A DNA stretch of 20,261 nt from Chrysochromulina tobinii (lineage: Eukaryota > Haptophyta > Prymnesiales > Chrysochromulinaceae), in the NCBI GenBank assembly GCA_001275005.1, contig JWZX01002727.1, positions 1 to 20,261 of the forward strand. The letters are read 5' to 3'. Positions 6,648-20,261 of the stretch are shown here, piece after piece. The position numbers and the translations under genes were made by a program. The notes under the pieces were generated by a model. The model was given only the letters and a program-made list of their open reading frames with translations, was not told where the DNA came from and made no database searches. Every line of letters starts with the position of its first letter. Positions within the stretch are counted from its first letter, which is position 1.

Positions 6648-9600
6648 TCACTCGTCAAAGTTCGTGAATGGCACGCAGTCGGCGCTATTCTGCAGGGGAT
6701 CGTTGTTGAGCGTCACTCGCACGCACACAACTTTGGGCTGCTCGACCTCGCACTGCGCGCGCCCGTCGTCTGCGCTGCAGCGCTGCTCCTGGTCCGCTTC
6801 GGTCGAGCGCGGTGCGCCCGAGGAGACTCCAAAGCGCGTGCCTGCAAAGTGGGCGGACGAGTTGTTCCAGGGAGGGCTGAGGCAGACGATGGCGGCGGCA
6901 AGCGGCACGTCGTCGTCGGTCCCGCCTGGCTCATCGCCCAGCGCGGCGCGCGCGAGGTCGGATCCGACCGGGTAGACCACCTGATGAGGGAGGCAATCAG
7001 AGGCCATCAGAGGCAATCAGAGGTCATCAGAGGCAATCAGAGGTCATCAGAGGCAATCAGAGGTCATCAGCGGTCATCTTCAGGATGGTCGGATCCGACC
7101 GGTAGACCACCTCCGCATCCACCATCGGGAGGTCCCCGAAGAGACACTTGATGCCTCGCTGGCTGCTCGCGCTGCCCGCGTCCAAGCTCGGCAAGGTGAG
7201 GATGTCGAGACCAAGGCTCTTGAAGCCCGTGCCGTACACCGTCACGTCGGTGCCCCCTTGCTTGGGGCCCGCGGCCGGATAGAGCCAGCGCACCGAGAGC
7301 ACCGGCGGCGCATAGTACTCGAAGCGCACGCCGGAGGCGGTGCGGTCGGCGAGCTGACCAGTAATCGAGAGCTCGACCGGCACGGGCACGTACGCCGTCC
7401 CGTTGCTTTGGTTGCGCAGCGGTGGAGAGACGCACACGGCGTGTGTGGAGTTGAGGAGCGTGGCCTGCACGTGCCACGGCAGCGCGCCCTCGACCGCCCC
7501 TGCCGCCAGAGCACGTGCGGGGCCGCCGAGCGGTGTCGCCTCGGCTGTGGAGTTGCCAAAGTTGCACAGCATTGGGGCATGCGAGAGGCGTCGGAAGTAA
7601 CGGCCGATCACAGTGACCGACGTGCCTCCCTCCATCGGCCCTCCAAACGGGTGCAGCGCTTGCACACGCACGCCCTCAAATGCCGTCAGCAGCGCGCCCA
7701 TCGCAGCACCGCCCGCCCCCACCGCCATCGCTTCGGGCTCGCCCACCACAGCGCCCACGTTGCACGTCTCCCAACGGACGTTGGGGTCAGCTGTGAAGCA
7801 CCACGGCGCCCCCGAACGCAGCCCGCCTGGTGCGCGGCAGTAGGTGTGCGCGCCCAGCCCCGCGTCGGGGAATGCGGCTGGCGTGTACGTGTGCGCGTGA
7901 GGTGTCTGCTCGTTCCACGGCTGGCATGCACGTCCGGTGACGGTGGCGTTCAGGGTGCCGCGGTACGTGCGACGCGCACGCTCCTCGCGCTCCCCAGCCA
8001 TGCACCAGCCAGGACGCGCGCAGTCGACGACGAACGTGTCGCGCGGGAAGTAGAAGAACCCGCGCGCAGAGCGTAGGTACTGTTGTCCATTGAGGGTCAG
8101 CCCTAACGACACCCACTGTGAATGGCCGCCCTTGTACAAGGAGGTATTCCCTGCCACCTCAGCGCGCAGCGGTGGCGCCTGGCACCACACCACCGGCTCG
8201 GGCCGACCCGGTGTTCCGCCTGGAGGCACGGCGTCCCATCCCAGCGCCCCCGTGTAGTTGGCCGTGCGCATCTGATGGGCGTCGTCATCCCACTCATGGT
8301 CCGTTTCGTAAGTCAGCACTGCGTCCGAGTGGCCGGCGACGCCGAAGCGGCATTGGAGCACCCAGCTGCCACCCGTGCCCGTGGGACCGTAGTACGGAGT
8401 CCAGATCGCAAGGCCCTCCCCACCGCTCCCAAGGCCTCCTCCAGCGCCACTGCCATTGGGCTGCAGCTGATGCACATGCTTAGCCCGTTGGTCGGGCCAA
8501 GCGCCGTCATAGGGTATGAGCTCCTCAAAGGAGGGGAGTGGGCCTGCCGTGCGCCGGTAGTTGGCGAGCACGCGCCCGCTGATGCGCACCCACGTGCCTC
8601 CGTCCATCGGGCCGCCCCACGTCTCAATCGCAGTGATGCGTGCCGCTCGCTCGTCGTAGTACGAAAAGTTGCATTGGGCACAGGGCGGCGACGCGGCCGC
8701 GTCGTCGCCGTTGAGGACGACGCTGACAGGCACGGAGCGCCGATGGTACGCGAGGTGGCCCTCGAATGGCGGCGAGCGGCAGATGAGCCGCGTGGGTGAC
8801 ACCACCGTCGCCGCGACTCGCACGGTGCCGTTGTGCGCGTATGGGTCGGCTCCGAAGAGGCAGTAGGTGCCATCGCGTGCGTCCGACGCTGGCGAGTCGA
8901 AGGCGGCGGAGCCACCCCGACGAAAGCCTCCGCCGAGCACGAGCACGGCCGTGTCGCCCGCCGTCGGCCCGCCGAGCGGCTCGACGAAGCTCACCCCCAC
9001 GCTCGCTGGATTGAGATACGCCCAGCTCGCATTCAGACCGTACGTGTACGAGTGGTCGTCGAACGTGACGTCCAGTGTGAAGGTTTCGTCAACGGCGGGG
9101 AGGGCGCCCAGGTCGGTCACATTGGCGACCAGGTGCGCGCGCGGCGTGAGGCACGTGAGCGTCTGCCGGTCGACGTACGTGGCGGGCACCTTCATCGCAC
9201 ACGGGCCCGGTCGTGCGCAGTCCGCCCGGCAGTCGAAGCCCTCAGCGCACGTTGCATTCGGCCGCAAGAAGACGCAATGGGCGTTGGGCGCGCGGGGCAG
9301 CGCCGCGCTCGAAGACTCGGGCAGGTAGCCACGCACGCCGCGCTTGCCCGGCCCCTCGAAGGCGTGGCCCACTACGGTGACGCGCGTGCCGCCGAGCACC
9401 GGCCCTGCCGAGGGCGACAGGTGGGAGATGCGGACCTCGCCTAGGTTGTAGTACGTGAAGGCGGTGGTCGCGGGGATGGAGCGCGTCCAGTCGACGCCGT
9501 TGAGGCTGATCTCGAGCGTCAGCTCGCGACGGCTGCTCTGCAGCCGCTCCAATGGATAGCTCGGCGTCCGGCAGCTCATCCGTTCGGGAGACTCCACCGT

Positions 9601-9750
9601 CGCCGGCATGATCCACGGCGCGCCGCCGAAGCGGCAGAGCGTGTGACCAAAGTCGCGAAAGCTGCGGCCCGAGACGTTCACGCGCATCCCGCCGCCGATG
9701 TCACCTAGGTTGGGCGAGACGGCGTCAATTTTGATGTGGCGTCGTGCCAT
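6648..9750 (-). CDS. Multi-IPT/TIG protein with embedded kringle-like domain, two exons
   Basis: The ATG is at 9750. Exon 1 is 9750-7111 and exon 2 is 6980-6648, joined phase 0 across an introner-like intron; the product is about 990 residues. Six IPT/TIG (Ig-like, plexin/transcription-factor) domains start with typical P..G...GGT signatures: residue 5 (AVSPNLGDIGGG), 106 (LSPSAGPVLGGT), 249 (VEPLGGPTAGDT), 371 (IETWGGPMDGGT), 695 (LHPFGGPMEGGT) and 822 (LYPAAGPKQGGT). The second has a Cys-rich insert. Between IPT 4 and 5, about residues 575-665, is a kringle-like module with TYRGTL, CQPWNEQTPHAH, TYCRAPGG, PWCFTADPN and RWETC. The protein is probably extracellular or adhesive and binds glycan or protein. 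No signal peptide is visible; the ATG begins directly in IPT 1, so an upstream exon may be missing. The final codons (FDE, then TGA) overlap a donor-like GTGAGG, so a further 3' exon cannot be excluded. Confidence 0.8.
6981..7110 (-). mobile_element. Introner-like intron in the IPT/kringle gene
   Basis: This is a 130-nt GT-AG intron (phase 0). The exon sequence AGGTGGTCTACC...GGATCCGACC is present twice, at 7087-7112 and 6956-6982 (26 and 27 bp, one G indel). Between the copies is filler built on the minus strand from alternating TGATTGCCTC and TGATGACCTC units, ending TGATTGCCTCCCTCATCAG. The donor GT lies in the upstream copy and the acceptor AG abuts the downstream copy. Splicing gives DAE|VVYPVG, which continues the sixth IPT domain. 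Unspliced reading hits TGA within the filler. Confidence 0.88.
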
Positions 9751-10113
9751 GGAATCCTTGTGGGTTCAACGCAATGACGGTTGCCTCAAAAAAGACATGC
9801 ATGCACGTGTTCACGTTTTCCGCACACACCGAGAGTAGAGTAAGTGAGCAATCAAGAGCATGCATTCGCTGCCTTGCAGTTTAGAAATTCCGCACGAGAT
9901 TCCTCACGGGCCCTGCGTAACTCAACTTCAAACAGTGATCTTGCTCGTTGTCGACACTTTTTTGCTCGACGACATTGACACTTCCCGCGAAAAAGTTATT
10001 TTGTGGGTGACCGGCTCCCCCCGGTGTCTTTGAACAACTTGTACTTGACACCGGGGGAGCCGAGCCTCCGCTCCTGTCCTACCAAAGTTGGATGAAAGTT
10101 GATTGTCGCCCAG
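9751..10113. promoter_or_regulatory. Divergent intergenic region between the IPT gene and the ABCA gene
   Basis: These 363 bases separate two divergent start codons and must contain both promoters and 5' UTRs. A strong GC hairpin lies at 10012-10062 (separate entry). An acceptor-like CCCACAAG just before the IPT ATG could mark an upstream exon of that gene. Confidence 0.45.
10012..10062 (+). promoter_or_regulatory. Strong hairpin just upstream of the ABCA start
   Basis: The left arm CGGCTCCCCCCGGTGTC (10012-10028) and right arm GACACCGGGGGAGCCG (10047-10062) pair over 16 bp with one bulged C, around an 18-nt loop. The right arm ends about 51 bases before the ATG at 10114. It is probably in the 5' leader or core promoter. 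A role in translation, transcription or as a small inverted-repeat remnant is inference. Confidence 0.65.
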
Positions 10114-13100
10114 ATGATAGCGCGAGTGGCCGACAATGGCGCGGGTGATGCTGCCCCATCCTTCCGCGGCCAGTTTGCCGGAATCTTCTTGAAGAACATC
10201 GCGCTCAAGAGAGGTGCCCTGAAGCAAACCTTCTATGAGTTTGTATTCCCCGTCTACTTTGCAGCCATCTTGTACTTCATCTCCACTCCACTCAAGTCGC
10301 CCATCGACTATCCAGGCAACTGCACCGGCGGTGCCGCCAATGCCACTTGCTTTGTTCCACTCGAAGCCGGCCTTGCCCCGTCGAGGGTGGACACTTGTAC
10401 CGTGGCCGCCGCCGCCACCGGCAATCCCGGATCCGTGCTGCTCTTCTCGCCCAACACAAGCGAGGCGCGCTCGATCGTCACGAACGCACTCGAGCTCCTC
10501 GATGCGTCAGGGTCGTGCGCACTGGGCTTCGACTCTGCGCGAGAGGCAGCTCAGTGGTACCTCGCCCAGCCGAGCTTTCGAGCGGACGTCACGTCCCCGA
10601 CGCGAATGGTCGTGGCCGCCGCCGTCTATCTGGACCTGAGCGCGCCCCTGACTGCCTCGTACACCCTCGCCCTGCCACCTGTCTTTTGGCCTCGACCTCG
10701 ACGCGGGCGCCTCGTTCTACGAGCTCAACTATGGTCAGTACGGCTCCAAGTACGGCGGGGTCGGAGTTTGGGTCGGGGTTTGGGTGCAGGGACCCCTCGC
10801 GCTCCAGTGGGCGATGACGCGCGCCATCGCAATGGAGCGCAATGCAACGCTGCGCGACGCTATCCTAGCGATCAACCCGACGCTGCCCACGCTCGCGGCG
10901 CTACCTGTGGCGCCCTTCACGTCGAGCTACACGCCCGGAGCGGGTGTCAAAGTGTTGACGTATCTGTTTCCGATCTACATGTGCGGGGGCCTCACCGCGG
11001 GTCTCGGTTACATGGTGGTGATGGTACGGCGAGACGGCGGTCGACCCCGCGACCTCCCGCGACCTCCCGCGCGACGCCAGCTCACGCGCGTTCTCGCTCT
11101 CCGTCACCACGGCAGGTGGTGAGCGAGCGCGAGAAGAAGCTGCTCGATGGGCTACGCATGATGGGCCTCTCGCCCCTTGTGTCCACGATGGCATGGTGGC
11201 TGCTGTACACGCTCATCTTCAGCGTCGGCGTCTCCGCAGTCACGATCATCACCGCCGTCGCCCAGCTCTTCCCGGGTGCGAACCTTGTCCTTTTTTGGAT
11301 CACGCTTGAGCTCTTCATGGTCTCGATGCTCGCCGCGGGCTTCGTCGTCTCGTCCGTGATGGCGACGGCTAAGCCCTCCCAAGGGGCCGCCACGCTCCTG
11401 TACATGGCTGGCTTCGGCCTCTTCGCCGTCAACCTTGCCTGCGGACGCCCAGCACTCCTCGAGCATCTCCTCTGCCTCATCTGCTTCGTCGCTGGGCCCG
11501 TCGGAGTGCTCAACTTCGTCGACGGCGCCGTCGCGGGCGCTCCCCTCACCTTCGAGAGCCTCACGGATGGGCAGACGCCGCTGCTCGCCGTGTGGGTGTA
11601 CCTGCTCTTCGATGCCGGCGTGTACGTGCTGCTCGCGTGGTACCTCGAGCAGGTGCGCTTCGGAGGCGCGAGATACGAGCGTGTGTTTGCATCTGATGAG
11701 CCATGATTGCCTCTGATGAGCCATGATTGCCTCCCTAATCAAGCAGGTGCGCTTCGGAGGCGCGATCCGCATGCAAGTGCTCACCACGGCGCCTCGCCTT
11801 CCCTACAGGTGCGCTTCGGAGGCGCGCGCTTCGACTTCGTGTGTCGGCGCTCGTGCTGGGGAACTGCCGGCATCGTCCGTCCGAGATTGGGTCAGATGGA
11901 GCTGCAGGAGGTGCGGGGGCTGAGCATCCTCACCGACGGCCTTGCTGCGACCGCCACCACTGCCCCTGACGCCGCCGTCGATGAGGTCGAGCGCCCTCTT
12001 GAGCGCGTGGCCGTTGAGCTCAAGAAGATCTCCCGCACCTTTCCCGGATCTCCGCCGGTGGTCGCTCTCAGCGACGTCTCCCTCCAGATGTACACGGGCC
12101 AGGTGGCGCCGCTGCCTCTGATTGCCTCTGATTGCCAAGTGGCCGTGTAATTGCCTCTGATTGCCTCTGATTGCCACGTGGCCAGGTGACGGCGCTGCTC
12201 GGGCCGAATGGTGCGGGCAAGTCCACCGCGATTGGTCTGTTGACCGGGCTCTTCCCCCCCACCTCTGGCACGGCGACCGTCTTTGGTCACGACATTCGGA
12301 CCGAGATGAGAGCTATCCGGCAGCTCACCGGCGTGTGCCCGCAGCATGATCTGCTCTTCGACTCGCTCACGTGCCAGGTGCGAGCGCCGCCAGAGTACCA
12401 TCCGATCGCCTCTGGTGATGTGCTCTTCGACCACCTGATGGCCTCTTGATGGCCTCTCGATGGCCTCGATGATAGCCTCTTGATGAAAGGCCTCTCGATG
12501 GCCTCGTTGATAGCCTCTTGATGAAAGGCCTCTCGATGACGTGCTCTTCGGACCCCCCTCTCCCGTGCTAGGAGCATTTGAAGCTCCTCGGCGCCATCAA
12601 AGGCGTGGCGGAGGCCAATCTGCGCCGTGAGGTGGATAGCTGGATCCGACGGGTCGGGCTCTTCGAGAAGCTCACCTCAGCGGCCTCGATCCTCTCCGGC
12701 GGCCAAAAGAGGAAACTCTCGGTGGCCATGGCGCTGATCGGCAATCCGCAGTTTGTGCTCCTCGATGAGCCGACGGCGGGCATGGACCCTGAGTCGCGCC
12801 GGGCGATATGGGAACTGATCATGGCGGCACGCACCTCGCGCTCGGTGTTGCTCACGACACATTTCATGGACGAGGCGGACGTGCTGGCCGATCGCATCGC
12901 CATCATTGCCAAGGCGCCCCTCGTGCTAGCTCCGTCGCTCGTGTATGCAGGCGGTGGAGGAGGCGGTGCAGGCACCTCCGACGAGGGGTTGGCGCGCGCA
13001 GGCAGCATTCAGTCGCCTCCACCCCCTGCTGCTGCTGCTGCTGCTGCAGTCGACGAGGGCAGTGTGAGCGCCCCTCGCGCCGAGCGTGGCGGGGTGCTGC

Positions 13101-16100
13101 GCGTCGTCGATACATCGCTCGGGCTCAAGACCCGCTGGGGCGCTGGCTACCATTTGCGATTCGGTCTGGCTGAGACGAACCGAGCCGCAGAGCTGTTGCA
13201 GCTGGTACAGCTCCACGTGGCGTCTGCGACGCAAGAGGAGCTCCAGACGCGCGAGATGACGATCTTGCTTCCGACGGAGTGCTCGGGAGCGTACGCGGCG
13301 CTGTTCCGAGCGCTCACGCCGGAGGTGATGCAGCCCCTCGGCTGCCTGAATTACGGGGTGTCGCTCCCATCACTCCAAGAGGTCTTCCTGAAGATCATCG
13401 ACGAGGACGAGGGCGGGTACTTGCCGCCCCAGCGGGCTCAAAGCTCGAGACCACCAGCAGTCCTGGGGGAGGAGCTGCCACTGCCTGCGGGTGGTGGCTC
13501 CGACCCGATCTCGACCAGACCTCGACCAGATCTCGACCAGATCTCGACCACCTTGCTGTCCACGTCCGATGCGTACGACCCGTCGGCGACCCATCCGGCG
13601 CCGAGATTCGCCGAGATGCTTCGGCTGATGATGTCGATTCATTGGGACCTCTGGCGGGTCGACCTTCGAGGGAATTTGTTCGTGCTTGGATTCGCGCTCG
13701 TCGTCCTCTTGGCCGCATTCTTGGTGCCGTGGATGTTCTCGCATTGGCCTTGCACTGACGACGAGGACGCGCGCGGTGACAGCCTGAGCATCGCTCCCAT
13801 CTTTCATGCCACCGCAGCGGCACTACCGTCCGTGCACGACGCCGTGTCTCCGCTCCCGTTCCTCGCGCCGCTCGAGAGCGCCGCCCGGGCCGGTCTCGAG
13901 GCCCTCGCACGTCAAACGCGTGGCTTCACAGCCGTGTCCCTGGGCGCACCGTTGAGCCACCTACCAGCGTCGATGGCCCATCTCGAGGCCGCTGTGTACG
14001 CCAACAGCACCCTGTTCGATGCCGTCGGCGCGTTCACCGCCTCGCGCAGCGTCTCCTCAGTGGGAGATGACCTGACGCTGTGGAGCAACGGCTTTGGCTT
14101 GCTCTTCGACTCGGAGTACCCAAACTCGGTGCCGGTGCTGCTTGGGGTGCTCGACACGGCGCTCCTCACCCAAGTGGCTCCGGGGATGACCATCTCCGCG
14201 GGCTACACGTACCTCCCCTCTGGCGGGGCCAATAGCACGAGCTGGACGTGCGGGGACAACCAGCCGCAGCTGCAGCTCCGGATGCAGCTGCAGCTTAGCA
14301 CGGTCCTCACGCCCATCGCGCTGTCGATCTCGGCGGCGCTCTTCACACTCTCTTCCGTCCTTGCGGTGGTGCAAGATCGGCAGACCAAATGCAAGCACCA
14401 GCTGCTCCTGATGGGCATGGACATCCGAGCCTATTGGCTCTCCGCCTTCCTCGCGCACGGCACCGTCCTCTTCACGGCCCTCGCCCTCCCCGCCATCGTC
14501 GCCGCTGCAGCCACCTCGACCATCTCGGCGGCGCCCGTGCCCGCCTTCGTGCTCGCCATCCTTCTCTCGATTCCTGCCGTCCTCATCTTCTCCTTCATGA
14601 TGAGCTTCCTCTTCTCCAAAAAGGAGACCGCCGCGGCCTATTACGCGAGCATGACGATAATGATCACCACCGTCGGTAACCTCGTCGTCTCGCTGCTACC
14701 GGACGCGGCGTCGCGCAAGCTGGTGCAGTACATCCTCCTCATCGTGCCCCTCAACCAGCTCATCGGCGCGGTCTCCACCTGCCTACAGATCGAGATGCTC
14801 GCCACCGGCAGCGGCACCCAACCGATCGCCATTGATTATTTCGCATTGACGTACACCAATGCGTTGACGGGGGACACGGTGGCCGGACCAGGCAGTTGCA
14901 TGCTCGCTTCGATCCTGTCCACGATCGTGTACGGATTCGTCATCTACAAGATTGACATGCTCCTTTATCTGCGTCCCGGAACGGAGCCGCCTCTGCCCCC
15001 TGCCGGGAGGGGCGCTGCTCAAGTGGTGGCCAGCCCTGTCGACGAGGACGAGGATGAGGACGTAGCCGCAGAGCGCGCACTCGTCGAGGCGGCGGGCGAG
15101 CAGCTGCACTCGGGCCCGGAGGCGGCATGGATCGCCATGAGAAGCCTTCGAAAGGAGTACAGGCCGTCCTTGTTCGAGTGCTCGCGCGCTCGCAGACCGC
15201 CCAAGGTGGCAGTAGACTCGCTCAGCGTGGCAGTCAGCCCGGGCACGTGCTTCGCGCTGCTCGGCCCGAATGGAGCAGGCAAGACCTCGGCGATCTCGAT
15301 GCTTACCGGGGAGGTGTTCCCCACTGCCGGCGGAGCGTGGGTCAAGGGCCTGTCAGTCCGCACGCAGCTCACCGAGATCTTCAAGCACACGGGCTTCTGT
15401 CCCCAGTTCAACGGGCTGTGGGAAAGGCTCACACTCGACCAGCACCTGAGGATCTACTTGCGATTGAAAGGGGTGCCCAAGTCGCATCTCGCTGCCGCGG
15501 CCGCAGACGTCGAGGATGACTACGGACTGCGCGAGCATGCCCGCAAGAAGAGCAAGGATCTGTCAGGGGGCACGCGGCGCAAGCTCTCGGCGGCGCTCGC
15601 GCTCGCGTGCGGGCTGCCCCCAGTCGTCTTCCTGGACGAGCCGACCACTGGCGTCGATGTGGGCACCCGCCGATTCATCTGGGATCGCATCCGAGCCAGC
15701 GTGAGCGGTCGCGTCATCTTGCTGACCACGCATTACGTGGACGAAGCGGACGCCCTCGCCCATCGCATCGGCATCATGGCCGGGGGCAAGCTGCGTGTGA
15801 TTGGGTCCCCACAGCACCTCAAGTCGCGCCATGGCGGAGGCTACCGCGTGCAAACGTGCGGCCCCGCCACGCACGCCGATGAGGTCTGCGCGCTCGTGCG
15901 CCGCACGTTTGAGACGGTCGAGCTGCTCGAAGCCCACGGCGGCACGCAGTGCTTCGAGGTGGGCTCGAACTTTGCGCTGGGCGACGCGTTCGCCGCGCTC
16001 GAGGAGGCCAAGGCGGCCAGGCTGCTGCACTCGTACTCGATCTCGCAGACGAGCCTCGAGCAGGTCTTCCTCAACATCTCCGCCAAGGCTCGCGGGGACT

Positions 16101-16171
16101 CGGCGTCGACCGAGCACCCAGCCGGGAGCTCCCCGGCGCCTCAAGGTGAGGGAAGCGGTCGTTCCTGCTGA
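10114..16171 (+). CDS. Full-size ABC transporter, subfamily A (ABCA-like), five exons
   Basis: Predicted exons are 10114-11023, 11116-11652, 11809-12102, 12186-12377 and 12572-16171. Their sum is 5533 nt, one base more than a whole number of codons, giving about 1843 residues. The order is typical of ABCA. There is one TM helix ([19 protein letters not shown]), a large lumenal loop, five or six more helices (11000-11650), then NBD1: [11 protein letters not shown] (12195), Q-loop CPQHD, signature [10 protein letters not shown], Walker [21 protein letters not shown]. Next come TMD2 (13670-14970) and NBD2: [11 protein letters not shown] (15257), [31 protein letters not shown]. All catalytic residues are present in both sites. 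ABCA proteins usually move lipids across membranes. The frame shifts by one base near 10675 (LALPPVFW against [11 protein letters not shown]). An upstream in-frame TTG at 10099 is not needed. A low-complexity insert (12930-13085) follows the NBD1 H-loop. Confidence 0.9.
11024..11115 (+). other. Ordinary spliceosomal intron in the ABCA gene
   Basis: This is a 92-nt intron, GTACGG to ACGGCAG, whose removal moves the frame from 2 to 1. It joins GYMVVM to [18 protein letters not shown], the conserved loop after the second TM segment. No flanking exon duplication or TGATTGC filler is present. It contains a short CGACCTCCCG tandem. Confidence 0.8.
11653..11808 (+). mobile_element. Introner-like intron with triple exon duplication (ABCA gene)
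   Basis: AGCAGGTGCGCTTCGGAGG-CGCG occurs at 11648-11671, 11742-11765 and (21 bp, starting CAG) 11806-11826. Between copies 1 and 2 the 20-base unit TGATGAGCCATGATTGCCTC is repeated twice (11694-11713, 11714-11733) and followed by CCTAATCA. Between copies 2 and 3 is unrelated sequence ending CCCTACAG. Removing 11653-11808 (156 nt, phase 0) gives [13 protein letters not shown], continuing the ABCA chain after the last TM helix. Nested alternatives, 11653-11746 (94 nt) or 11747-11808 (62 nt), could also be spliced. Unspliced reading stops at TGA at about 11704. Confidence 0.85.
12103..12185 (+). mobile_element. Introner-like intron next to Walker A of NBD1 (ABCA gene)
   Basis: This is an 83-nt GT-AG intron (phase 0) whose removal changes frame 1 to 3 and joins YTGQ to [13 protein letters not shown]. 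The flanking exon piece GGCCAGGTG.CG.CGCTGC is present on both sides with two mismatches in 20. The filler is GATTGCCTC units, four of them, split by a short AAGTGGCCGTGTAA segment that supplies an in-frame stop. The diverged repeats suggest an older insertion. Confidence 0.85.
12378..12571 (+). mobile_element. Repeat-rich intron in NBD1 (ABCA gene), introner-related
   Basis: This is a 194-nt intron, GTGCGA to GTGCTAG, joining DSLTCQ to [12 protein letters not shown] in NBD1 after the Q-loop. Its centre is built from GATGGCCTC(T) and GATGAAAGG units, including a 38-bp unit in tandem at 12454-12491 and 12492-12529 with one mismatch. GTGCTCTTCG occurs before and after the repeat block (12420, 12541), like a diverged flanking duplication. 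The exon-derived direct repeats of the other introns are not clear here, so membership of the same family is likely but not proven. Confidence 0.75.
13017..13047 (+). repeat. CTG/GCT trinucleotide run in the ABCA gene
   Basis: About seven CTG/GCT triplets encode a poly-Ala stretch after a poly-Pro stretch in the low-complexity insert of NBD1. Confidence 0.8.
13508..13550 (+). repeat. 12-bp tandem repeat in the ABCA linker
   Basis: The unit TCTCGACCAGA and close variants repeat about four times and encode the [16 protein letters not shown] part of the linker between NBD1 and TMD2. It is in frame and outside conserved domains. Confidence 0.75.
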
Positions 16172-16362
16172 TTCCCGTTCCTTGCTTGCGATTCCATTTC
16201 GCGTTCAAGCGACGTGTCCTCTCGTAAAATCGTTGGACGTTGAGCAAGGAAAATACACGGGGTGCAAGGAAAATACACGGGGTGCCGGACCGGCCGAGGA
16301 CGCCGAGTGTGAACAGCCAATTCACAGTTGTACTGTTTTCATCAGGCTGCCTCCATCCACAA
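16172..16362. other. Short intergenic region with a 20-bp tandem duplication
   Basis: These 191 bases lie between the ABCA stop and the PX-gene ATG, both on +. They must hold a 3' UTR and the next promoter. GCAAGGAAAATACACGGGGT is present twice back to back (16244-16263 and 16264-16283). Confidence 0.7.
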
Positions 16363-19300
16363 ATGACCAACGAGGAGCTCGACGGCACCCCGCCGCTACG
16401 TCTGACGGACGTCGACGTGAGGACGGACGACGTGTGGCACTCGCAGCTCCCCGGCCTCCTCGAGCGCGACGAGTGGCGAAGGTACAGCTACACCTTGCGC
16501 GTGCCCGGCTTCGTCGACGTGCCTGACGACTCGCTCCGCGGCTCCTTCACCGCGTACGAGATCACGTTCACGCTGCGCACGCCCGCGGGCAGGCCGTACA
16601 CGTTCCGCGCGCGCCGGCGCTTCAGCGAGTGGCGAAAGCTCCACGCCGACCTGGGACCATCAGTGGGCAAGTTCCCCGTCGTCCGTCCCTTCCAGCTGAT
16701 GCCCGACGAGGACGCGAAGCAGAAGCGCGCGGCAGCGCTCGAGCGCTGGCTGCAGGAGCGCTTGCAGCCGGTGTACGGCGCGCCCGTCGCCCGAGGTGCT
16801 CCAGTTCGTCGGCATGCACGGCATGCACGGCATGCCGGCTAGCATCGGCCGGCGAGACTCATCAGTTCTGGGGCGGACAACGTTGGGCTCTTTCGACACG
16901 ACGCATCGCGGGACGGTGCGTGAGACGTTCGAGGCACGAGCGACGTGCGAGCAGGCGGACGGGCCCATTGTTATTGGCGCATCCGCCGCATCCTGCGTCA
17001 GCCTCGACCTGACGCCCACGACGCAGGCCGGGTCCAGCTCGAGCCTCGACAACCTCGGACGCGGATCGTTCCGTTCGGTCTCGTCCTTCAACTCGCTGCA
17101 GCCGACGCCCAACTCGACGCCGACCGCGACCAAGCGCGTGCCGCCGCGCGTGCCCTTCGTGCCCTTCGTGCCTATCGACTCGCCGACCGATGAGCAGGGA
17201 AGGGAGGGCACAGGGCGTGCAGCCGCGAGTGGGGAGCAGGGTACACAAGCAGGCGCAAACGGGGGCGCGGGCGGCCACGGCGGGGTGGCACTCGCGCACC
17301 CGCCCTCGCGCACGCCCGGTACGGCGCTTCCCTTCCGCCAACGGCTCCACGCGCGCGTGCTCGGTACGGCGCTCGCCTCCTTCGCGCCCGTGCCTCTCGT
17401 CGTGCTCAGCACGGCGCTCGGCTCGTTCGCGTCCGTGCCTCTCTTTGTGATCATCCCGGTCGTCTGCCTGTGGGCGCTCCAAAACTTTGACCTGCTCTGC
17501 CTGCTGTGCCTCGCCCAGTACGGCGCGTGTTACGCGGCGCTCGACACGGCGCTCGGCGGCAACAGGCAGGTGGCGCCCGGCACGGCGCTCCTCGCGCTGC
17601 CGCCGCCGCTGGACTCGGCCTCGCTGCTCACGGCGCTGCTCGCGTACACGCTCGAGCGGATTCGTATCATGCTGCTCCCCGCCGCCACAGCGTCCACCGC
17701 CGCCTTTGTACTACCGGCTTCTGGTGCGACACCTGGTGCCCTTGGCCGCGCCGCCGGCCTCAACGGGGCGTCGGTACGCCCAAGCCCCGCCTTTGTGCTC
17801 TGATCGCATGCTGATTGCATGCTGATTGCCTCCCCCATCAGGTACGCCCAAGCCCCGCCTTTGTGCTCTGGATCAGCGTCGCTCTCGCGTGCAGCGGCGG
17901 CGGTGGTGGCGGCGGCGGCGGCCTGGGCGGCGTCATGGATGGCGGCAATGACGCCAATGACGCCACTGGCAGCTTGGCGGAGGGGTTGATGGCGGCGGCG
18001 GAGGTTGCGATGACCGATGCGACAACCGACGCGGAGATGCTCAATACGGCGCTACTCAATACGGCGCTGGGCGTGGGCAGCGCGGCGCCCACGACGGCGC
18101 GTCCGGTCCGTCTTGTCGCTCTCGCCGAGGGCGCGGTGTTTGCGCTCGTATTGCTTGTGTGGGCGGCTGCGTTGCTCTTCGAGTGCTTGGAGGCGGCGGA
18201 GGTGACACGGGTGGCGGCGGAGGCGGCGGAGGCGGCGGCGCGCGCCTCCGTTTCGGACGACGTCCCCGGCGGCCTGAGCAACACCTCACTCGGGAGCTCG
18301 CGTCGTCGTGGGCGTCTCTCATGGCTCGAGCACGCCGCCCCTATCTGCCGTGCGGGCACGTGCGCCGTGCTCGCGTGCCTCGGGGCCTGGCGCCTGGGGG
18401 GCACGGGCGCGTGGCTCGTGGCCGCTCTGACCCTGTCCGTCCTCGTCCACGAGCTTGCGGAGGCGTCGGAGCTGGCGAGATGGGCGCGGCTGAGCAGCCG
18501 AATTCGAGCTGGCGCGCCGTACGAGCACGGCATGGCGCCGCCGCCGCGCGCTGCCGCCGCCGCGCCGTCGCCGCGTCGACAGGCGCTGCCGCTCATGCGT
18601 AGTCAGAGCCCTCAGTGGCGCACGGAGACCTTCGAGCACCCGGTGAGCCACGCCGTGTCGAGCGCGTCTGAGCTCGACCCGAGGAGATCTGAGCTCGACG
18701 TGGACGGTTGGGAAGTGCTCGACGACGACGTGACCAGCTTCGCGACCGACCCTCAGTACGCACGCCTCGCCCCTGGGGGACACCAGCCTCGCTGTGAATG
18801 TTCACACCCCAGGGGACACCAGCCTCGCTCGCGACGGTTGAGCCACGAGAAGGGGGCGGGTGCTCGCCACAGCGCCGGCGCCGCCGCCAGGGGAGAGGGC
18901 GTAGGCGGCAGCAGCAGTAGCGGCGGCAGTGGTGGCGGGGGCGACGCGGGGGGAGGGGTGCTTGCCGACACCACGACCACGGCCACCGCGCCCACCGCCG
19001 CTACATCACCACTGGAACAGCCAGCCACGCACGCCGTGGTGGGCACTTCCGAGGCCACGCCGCACCCCACCAGCCCCGCTACCTCGCCCGTGCACGGCGG
19101 CGGCGGCGGCAGCAGCAGTGGCGATCGATCCGAGCCCATCCCTCCTATGGATCGGTCCGCATGCATCGAGCCCCTCCAGACCCTGCAGCGCACAATGGCG
19201 CTCACCTCCCCGATGCTCTCGATGGCGGAGCGGCTCCTCCGTTGCCTCCCTCACGAGCTACGTGAGCTCGCGCGCCCGATTGCCGTCGAGCTGCTCGCGG

Positions 19301-20261
19301 TAGGGGTCGAAAAGGGAGCGATCGACAATGACAAGTTCCGGGCGATCGTGCAGGCGCTCGGCGCGACGCTCTCGCTCGTGCTCACACGTACGCTTCTCGA
19401 CCCTGCAGGCCGCATGAAGCTCTGGCTCGGCCTGATTGCATGCTGATTGCATGCTGATTGCCTCCCCCATCAGGTACGCTTCTCGACCCTGCAGGCCGCA
19501 TGAAGCTCTGGCTCGGCCTCAAGGCCTTTGCCGACTCGGCGCCCATGGAGGGGCGGCTGCCCGCGGTCGTGTCGGCGTTCACGCGCCAGCGACATGCCTT
19601 CTCGATAGGCATGCATGGCTCGCTCGTGATGGTCCGAGATAGGCGAACGGAGGCTCGCGTCGCGATGCATCGGCTGTACACGCCGGGCACCTCACCGCCC
19701 GAGCGTGTGCAGCCGAGCTCGGTCCGGGAAGGCGACGTCGTGCGTGTGCGCCTGCCGCTCTTTCTCGAGACAGGGCGGCCGGATCCGGAGGAGGCGCTCT
19801 TCCTCGCTGTCATCACGGCAGTCCATTCGGACGGCTTCGGTCCCTCGTCCTCAGACGACGACGACGGCCGAGGCGGCGGCTTTGGCGGGCACGTAGGGAT
19901 CGGCGGGCTGAGCGGCATCGGCTATGCTGCCTATGCGATTCCGCTCTCGCCACGTCGATCAACCGGGGGCATCCCGACTTGCGTGGACGTACGTTACAAG
20001 GATGAGGTGAAGGCCACGTTTGGGGACGTGCCCGAGGGGGCGGGACTCAATGTGCTTGACTTGGTCCAGGACGTTGGTGCCACGTGGCGTCTCTGGATGC
20101 GCGGGATACACATCGATATCATTGTGCCTGATGATAAGACCTCCGAGCAACGGCATCAGAACACTGACCCGACCGACATCCCTCGCGTGCGCGGATTCTC
20201 CTCCGTCAAGCGCGAACACACCGCCGCCGCCGCCGCCGCTACCGCCGCCGCCGCCGCCACC
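16363..20261 (+). CDS. PX-domain protein with hydrophobic segments and low-complexity linkers (3' partial)
   Basis: The ATG is at 16363 (ACAAATGACC). Exons are 16363-17773, 17842-19387 and 19474 onward; the last stays open to the final base, so about 1248 residues are visible and the gene continues. Residues ~50-150 look like a phox-homology (PX) domain: YEITFTLRTPAGRPYTF, RRRFSEWRKLHADLG, FP, KQKRAAALERWLQERL, and PEVLQF. PX domains bind phosphoinositides on endosomal membranes. The reading frame shifts by one base near 16785-16795, between ERLQPVYGAPV and PEVLQF. Hydrophobic stretches follow at about 17385-17540, 17850-17885, 18100-18175 and 18355-18460, separated by Gly- and Ala-rich runs. 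The C-terminal ~260 residues (from RTLLDPAGRMKLWLGLKAF) are more regular, but I do not recognise a domain. The PX, PXA and Nexin-C order of known transmembrane sorting nexins is not seen. Confidence 0.7.
17321..17455 (+). repeat. 45-bp coding repeat (TAL repeats) in the PX gene
   Basis: ACGGCGCT recurs at 17321, 17366 and 17411, exactly 45 bases apart. Copies 2 and 3 are similar throughout (TALASFAPVPLVVL and TALGSFASVPLFVI); copy 1 is weak. The repeat builds the first hydrophobic segment. More TAL tripeptides, all encoded ACG GCG CTN, follow at about 17548, 17581, 17628, 18045 and 18061. Confidence 0.75.
17774..17841 (+). mobile_element. Introner-like intron 1 of the PX gene
   Basis: This is a 68-nt GT-AG intron (phase 0). 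A 30-bp exon piece beginning GGTACGCCCAAGCC is perfectly duplicated at 17773-17802 and 17841-17870. The 38-bp filler between copies is GATTGCATGCT-type units ending TGATTGCCTCCCCCATCA. Splicing restores ASVRPSPAFVLWISVAL; retention stops at TGA (17801) straight after the first copy. Confidence 0.93.
18776..18829 (+). repeat. 36-bp in-frame duplication in the PX gene
   Basis: GGGGACACCAGCCTCGCT occurs at 18776-18793 and 18812-18829, 36 bases apart, giving a repeated GHQPR peptide in a low-complexity linker. Confidence 0.85.
19388..19473 (+). mobile_element. Introner-like intron 2 of the PX gene
   Basis: This is an 86-nt GT-AG intron (phase 1, splitting an Arg codon). A 46-bp exon piece starting GTACGCTTCTCGACC is perfectly duplicated at 19388-19433 and 19474-19519. 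The 40-bp filler is GATTGCATGCT twice, then GATTGCCTCCCCCATCAG. It differs from the filler of PX intron 1 by one internal base (C/T) plus the terminal bases. Splicing gives LTRTLLDPAGRMKLWLGLKAF, and the downstream frame is open to the window end. Confidence 0.94.
20217..20261 (+). repeat. GCC trinucleotide run at the window end
   Basis: More than a dozen GCC/GCT/ACC triplets encode a poly-Ala/Thr stretch at the end of the visible PX-gene frame. The run may continue beyond the window. Confidence 0.85.

Follow-up and report, generated by a model that had tools for sequence, protein, structure and literature searches.

Among the described sources of new introns, introners come closest to the elements considered here. 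In the survey of Gozashti et al. 2022 (PMC9860276), as far as its available sections describe it, target-site duplications (TSDs) measured 3-9 bp, similarity near both intron ends was required and low-complexity families were removed. In its Symbiodinium introners, the donor comes from the target duplication and the acceptor lies on the element, whereas the introners of a Chrysochromulina metagenome-assembled genome from TARA (family 5, Fig. 2C legend), likely of the same order or genus as the alga studied here, have 4-bp TSDs, carry the 5' splice site and co-opt the 3' one. A further described route is tandem genomic AGGT duplication (PMC3443670), in which an exon segment is doubled and the copies provide the splice sites. 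The window analysed here is the whole 20,261-nucleotide (nt) contig JWZX01002727.1 (C1570) of the haptophyte alga Chrysochromulina tobinii, within a 53.15-Mb assembly of 2253 contigs. From its sequence, an original prediction had described five introns in which a directly duplicated exon segment encloses a shared filler. Our analysis indicates that such introns very probably arise by copying of the 3' ends of other introns.

These introns are like introners in that many similar introns stand at unrelated sites, exons are the place of insertion and relatives lack them, in our case at the protein level; the duplication-derived donor and the acceptor on the inserted piece are as in Symbiodinium and the reverse of family 5. 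However, the duplications measured 13-46 nt in 27 cases against TSDs of 3-9 bp, the 5' part is a locus-specific copy of the local exon, so that the two-ended similarity required in that survey is lacking, and host exon is carried along, of which the available sections of PMC9860276 make no mention for introners. Terminal inverted repeats occur in part of the known introner families; the 5' end of the copied piece is inconstant here. Tandem AGGT duplication shares the doubled exon segment and the splice sites derived from its copies, but in the present introns the copies are separated by a filler that brings its own acceptor, and an AG stands before copy 1 in no more than 8 of 30 cases. Other insertions flanked by direct repeats combine short repeats with assorted filler, whereas the filler here belongs to one of two families and its 3' end is always the intron end. 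These introns are introners that copy intron 3' ends, perhaps by a new mechanism, and no description of either filler family was found in the open-access literature, as far as its text was available.

Fillers traced to source introns and the duplicated exon

The filler is the 3' end of another intron and no inert spacer. From filler sequence that is exon at the locus of another intron, source and direction are set for three events, from C395 to C19, from C1396 to C107 and from C1330 to C987. The 62-nt filler of L002 (C19) holds an unusual 15-mer whose only other occurrences are two at C395, separated by 80 bp and with the same distance to the acceptor, and filler and C395 intron end are equal at 67 of 68 positions, six past the AG included. 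Since 24 nt of this filler are exon at C395, where further exon follows, and are also duplicated within the C395 intron, that intron appears to have been copied into C19 together with a part of its host exon. Between the filler of L028 (C107) and the C1396 intron end, identity is complete (73 of 73 positions, with two preceding and three following the filler taken in), and the filler includes AACTCCG, which is exon at C1396, while L052 (C987) carries the C1330 unit, including the C1330 exon start GTGCCGAGC, with 70 of 72 positions equal. In addition, L055 was probably derived from L028, 8 kb off on the same contig, with which it has 39 nt and a further 16 nt of exon in common; one 13-mer from this exon part recurs by chance at L045. 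The L052/C1330 and L055/L028 pairs come from comparison among the sampled loci. In each traced copy the source intron was kept up to its AG and shortened on the 5' side, and source and target agree past the AG over 6, 3, 4 and 3 nt (L002, L028, L052 and L055, respectively), the shared necessary GT included. The view that the mechanism differs from cut-and-paste transposition, already put forward in the original prediction, is strengthened by these results: donors of fillers were found, and the copied piece ends at the source AG and carries source exon. Another match of the L044 filler, at C1100 (L072), was unrelated and was rejected.

The exon duplications were surveyed at 128 acceptors, 59 of which had an anchored copy scoring at least 12; 30 simple cases were kept and 29 of the 59 were set aside as tandem or internal. 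In all 30, a filler lies between the copies and the duplication begins directly after the acceptor AG, with GT in 25 cases, GC in two, GA in two and CC in one. The two GA cases (L012:532 and L015:682) are doubtful and run into the family motif, splicing at the CC start (L056) is doubtful as well, and L071:120 was included although it is a unit of a two-unit array. For the 27 GT/GC cases, from a search that allowed lengths up to 90, duplications measured 13-46 nt, fillers 36-142 nt and introns 68-162 nt; longer fillers went with shorter duplications (rho -0.61, p 0.0007), and the 68-nt intron floor suggests a lower size limit for splicing. Copy 1 was preceded by G in 24 of 30 cases and by AG in just 8, which places the acceptor AG mostly outside the exon duplication.

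An upstream anchored copy scoring at least 14 was present at 50 of 98 sampled acceptors against 1 of 98 with randomly drawn downstream exons; the 98 include tandem-array units, and the draw allowed self-pairing, which is maybe the source of that single case. Among 74 outermost acceptors, 51 had a repeat scoring at least 14, of which 31 were free of the family motif; these motif-free repeats start from -3 to 0 relative to the AG in 22 of 31 instances and five others anchor at 0 in a gapped test, leaving L012:532, L061, L068 and L009(+). A small null for family 2 was discarded, two of its six scores being at least 18 with self-pairing possible. A test for open frames across the joined flanks was likewise left unused as uninformative in this GC-rich DNA: in a set of 29 (the 27 GT/GC events, with L071 as its full array, plus L073 and L046:4450), 23 were open when spliced and 5 unspliced, whereas 22 were open in antisense and a mean of 21 in shifted frames. 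Duplications starting with GC or GA were observed at L012, L018, L025 and L057, where non-GT donors may be in use.

The introns of the window and their absence in relatives

The predicted introns of the window, which fall in three genes, are the following:

6981..7110, minus strand: intron of the IPT/Kringle gene, 130 nt; copy 1 at 7087-7110, filler at 6981-7086, copy 2 (exon) at 6956-6980.
11653..11808, plus strand: intron of the ABCA-type gene, 156 nt; exon copies at 11653-11670 and 11747-11764, exon at 11809-11826.
12103..12185, plus strand: intron of the ABCA-type gene, 83 nt; TGATTGC filler, weak exon duplication.
12378..12571, plus strand: further intron of the ABCA gene, 194 nt; TGATGGCC-type arrays, no end-anchored duplication noticed.
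17774..17841, plus strand: intron of gene 3, 68 nt; copy 1 at 17774-17802, filler at 17803-17841, copy 2 (exon) at 17842-17870.
19388..19473, plus strand: intron of gene 3, 86 nt; copy 1 at 19388-19433, filler at 19434-19473, copy 2 (exon) at 19474-19519.

Three of these, 6981-7110, 17774-17841 and 19388-19473, are among the 30 cases of the survey, whose acceptor patterns missed the other two of the five. The copies are of 24 and 25 nt around a 106-nt filler in the first, exact over 29 nt around a 39-nt filler in the second and exact over 46 nt around a 40-nt filler in the third. At 11653-11808, the 18-nt exon start is present three times with two different fillers in between, of family 1 at 11671-11746 and of family 2 at 11765-11808, and both families thus stand at one donor. 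At 12103-12185, by contrast with the other four, the exon copies, compared by eye, differ at 2 of 13 positions and would score 7 (11 matches, 2 mismatches) against a 99th percentile of 13.3 in the mismatched-pair null, and the strong direct repeat of this intron lies inside its filler. The single architecture ascribed to all five in the original prediction is thus clear in four and weak in the fifth with respect to the exon duplication; its placement of the introns in three genes and on both strands, always oriented with the gene, agrees with the reading frames, whereas its single filler family had left the second filler at 11765-11808, which belongs to a different family, unseparated.

After removal of both predicted introns, the frame of gene 3 is stop-free from 16700 to 20261, and the IPT gene reads 990 residues from ATG to stop when spliced in silico versus 897 unspliced. 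In the ABC gene, predicted splicing restores the Walker A region, which aligns with ABCA structures and by which the putative intron 12103-12185 is well supported despite its weak duplication. Predicted splicing at the window junctions agrees with the restored frames and with protein comparison.

Absence of the introns in relatives was judged at the protein level. P0121, 74% identical over the alignment, shows no gap at either gene 3 junction, at NGAS|VRPSPAFVLW and within the R codon of LVLTRTLLDPAG, and both ABC junctions (11653 and 12103) are crossed without gap by the more distant P0002 (46%). P0121 and P0002 would be unspliced gene calls, hence intronless DNA, given that the initial M of P0001, from the same source, stands at a V of the window and that P0001 continues in another frame. 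The IPT/Kringle gene has a relative in Prymnesium polylepis, and P0127, P0128 and P0129 cross the junction at 6981-7110 without gap, P0129 coming from the EukProt set and being uninformative on introns. P0126, from a different contig, has 99% identity across 888 residues, and its last residues run from copy 1 on into the filler of the same intron (VVYPIGSDHPEDDR), so that this joint is not peculiar to the present assembly.

Two irregularities were observed within these genes. In the ABC gene, 13501-13550 holds an 11-bp tandem repeat, whose copy number may vary between strains, and the near-identical P0001 continues there in another frame. Near 16780, gene 3 changes between two open frames where P0121 is continuous (intron, error or frameshift).

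Two filler families across the genome

The original prediction had proposed a genome-wide search for the filler, a look for flanking direct repeats at its matches and a comparison with relatives. TGATTGC occurs 17 times in the window against 2.35 expected, and the 3' end of the filler, TGATTGCCTCCCNCATCAG, has 904 exact matches in the 53.15 Mb against 0 for its reversed control. Flanking direct repeats recur at the sampled acceptors, and relatives were found to lack the introns, so that the claim of recently gained, introner-like introns combining a long, variable exon duplication with a shared filler is supported. The T form of family 1 followed by GT has 590 genome matches, and the C form followed by GT has nine, gene 3 of the window accounting for two. 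Family 2, around GCATGCAAGTGCTCACNACGGCGCC (387 exact 25-mer matches in the genome), was recognised through a general scan for local direct repeats in 200 kb of evenly spaced contigs, and its introns at L008, L018, L032, L046 and L044 are built in the same way as those of family 1. That scan yielded 46 repeats, of which 11 satisfy a lenient AG|G[TC] criterion on one strand or the other; coding repeats make up several of these. The same 200 kb held seven family-1 acceptors, three followed by GT or GC (reversed control 0), and 24 matches to a loose family-2 pattern, seven of them with GT/GC (control 10), counts that give the family totals merely to the order of a thousand or more.

Among 100 listed TGATTGCCTCCCNCATCAG matches, the strand was common to 22 of 22 neighbours 130-1500 bp apart and to 7 of 11 farther apart, a sharing by nearby sites that is expected if the sites follow genes, and five contigs had at least four sites against 0.07 expected (Poisson, equal contigs). 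Outside the alga, the family-1 21-mer had no match in viral contigs, phage records gave no match, and the three matches of the T-form 19-mer in a prokaryote contig collection of 257 billion bases are about chance level. Family 2 had one match in the viral collection (L074:4495-4519, an IMG/VR contig), located at the edge of an apparently chimeric contig.

Whole units of exon copy plus filler stand in tandem at C1959:55592-55831, C1300:5081-5412, C107:2616-2776, L053 and L071, with periods of about 54, 78, 70, 48 and 80 bp, respectively, and arose perhaps by unequal exchange between copies. At L038:5228-5326, a 20-bp direct repeat surrounds a TGATGA-rich filler that starts with GT, and the second copy does not follow an AG; the arrangement may be reversed there.

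Proposed mechanism, alternatives and implications

In the proposed mechanism, the segment copied from a source intron would begin at a variable point, often within the exon-derived part of that intron, and extend to the 3' splice site; it would enter a new exon, where the 13-46 nt of target just downstream of the new AG would become duplicated. The inserted piece would supply the acceptor together with CTGAT or GCTCAC, which we take to be branch-point-like motifs, and the upstream copy of the target would supply the donor, splicing then restoring the exon; since the exon duplicated at the source can form part of the copied piece, fragments of earlier hosts would travel along. The template may be intron RNA, inserted by target priming through an endogenous reverse transcriptase like that of long interspersed nuclear elements (LINEs), with staggered nicks, and selection may retain those insertions that have a donor at their start and are at least about 68 nt long.

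A variable target duplication, a common 3' end and 5' truncation are the outcome of target-primed reverse transcription. The introns described here share these features with the retro-insertion of LINEs and short interspersed nuclear elements, from which they differ in that no element-specific tail was seen, the 3' end is a splice site and the RNA intermediate is hypothetical. The genome has 26 RVT_1 matches, 22 of them over the cut-off and most in long open frames. On this pattern, we incline slightly towards RNA-templated, target-primed insertion as the route by which intron 3' ends are copied. More tentatively, and with somewhat less than even confidence, spliceosomal introns may themselves act as retroelements, with reverse transcription of excised intron RNA that starts at the 3' end of this RNA on a nicked exon and leaves 5'-truncated copies, long staggered duplications supplying the donor.

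Several points weigh against this account. Reverse transcriptases are common in algae, and their presence proves nothing about their use here; GT starts may reflect selection or microhomology, and the sharing past the AG is not clearly beyond chance. No source was found for three of the five fillers searched genome-wide (L044, window 11675 and L070), the repeat of L068 starts 21 nt past the AG, and non-GT starts occur (CC at L056, GA at L012:532 and L015:682, AA at L065). The cases were, moreover, found through their acceptor, so that other end points are under-seen.

Copying could instead proceed from a DNA template, which we consider less likely. A stalled fork or resected break would anneal by GTR microhomology to an intron-exon border elsewhere, in a manner resembling microhomology-mediated break-induced replication or polymerase theta, copy back through the intron end and rejoin its own template 13-46 nt behind, leaving the duplication and the templated insert. 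The 3-6 nt of past-AG agreement in the four traced pairs would fit this route, as would a 5'-joint match of about 2 nt in two pairs (both judged by eye) and the rare C-form filler and GTACGC past the AG that introns 17774 and 19388 have in common. Proximity points the same way, the nearest-neighbour filler lying on the same contig in 14 of 56 cases against a permutation mean of 4.5 (maximum 14 in 1000), a count stronger than the weak result for mean filler distance within contigs (p 0.033; 71 of 101 elements, tandem neighbours dropped). However, a family-wide likeness of exon starts was not significant, similar fillers going with similar exon starts at p 0.156, 0.158 and 0.053 for three cut-offs (56 GT-start of 80 distinct elements), and two observations argue mildly against a DNA template: no duplication in the set of 27 exceeds 46 nt, with lengths up to 90 admitted in the search, and copies do not as a rule continue beyond the source AG.

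It is improbable that these are ordinary introners, that is, non-autonomous DNA transposons moved by a transposase and leaving exceptionally long target duplications. Their abundance, their placement in exons and the element acceptor paired with a duplication donor recall the Symbiodinium introners (PMC9860276, in its available sections), in which the TSDs are of 4 bp, but the duplication here varies from 13 to 46 nt, and the 5' end of the inserted piece differs between source and copy and includes host exon, which leaves a transposase no fixed termini. Tandem duplication of an exon segment, with later minisatellite expansion of branch-point-like repeats into convergent fillers, is more improbable still: many fillers are indeed unit arrays and exon-plus-filler units stand in tandem at several loci, but one 3' end recurs in 904 exact copies, some fillers contain exon of hosts on other contigs and an AG before copy 1 is present in just 8 of 30 cases. 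An assembly artefact is scarcely credible, for although short direct repeats can misassemble, P0126, from another contig with differing sequence, reads copy 1 into filler, the copies diverge to varying degrees and the spliced frames match relatives.

The origin of new introns is a long-standing question. With the copying of intron 3' ends in this alga, individual events can be assigned a source and a copy, with the direction given by the carried exon, which makes end points, truncation and duplication measurable event by event. Intron mobility here would be that of the 3' part alone, the host supplying the donor, and it is suggested that surveys demanding similarity at both intron ends would tend to miss such families. 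A flow of coding fragments into the introns of other genes is predicted. If the introns do behave like retroelements, they would spread without genes of their own or terminal repeats and would shuffle exon fragments between genes.

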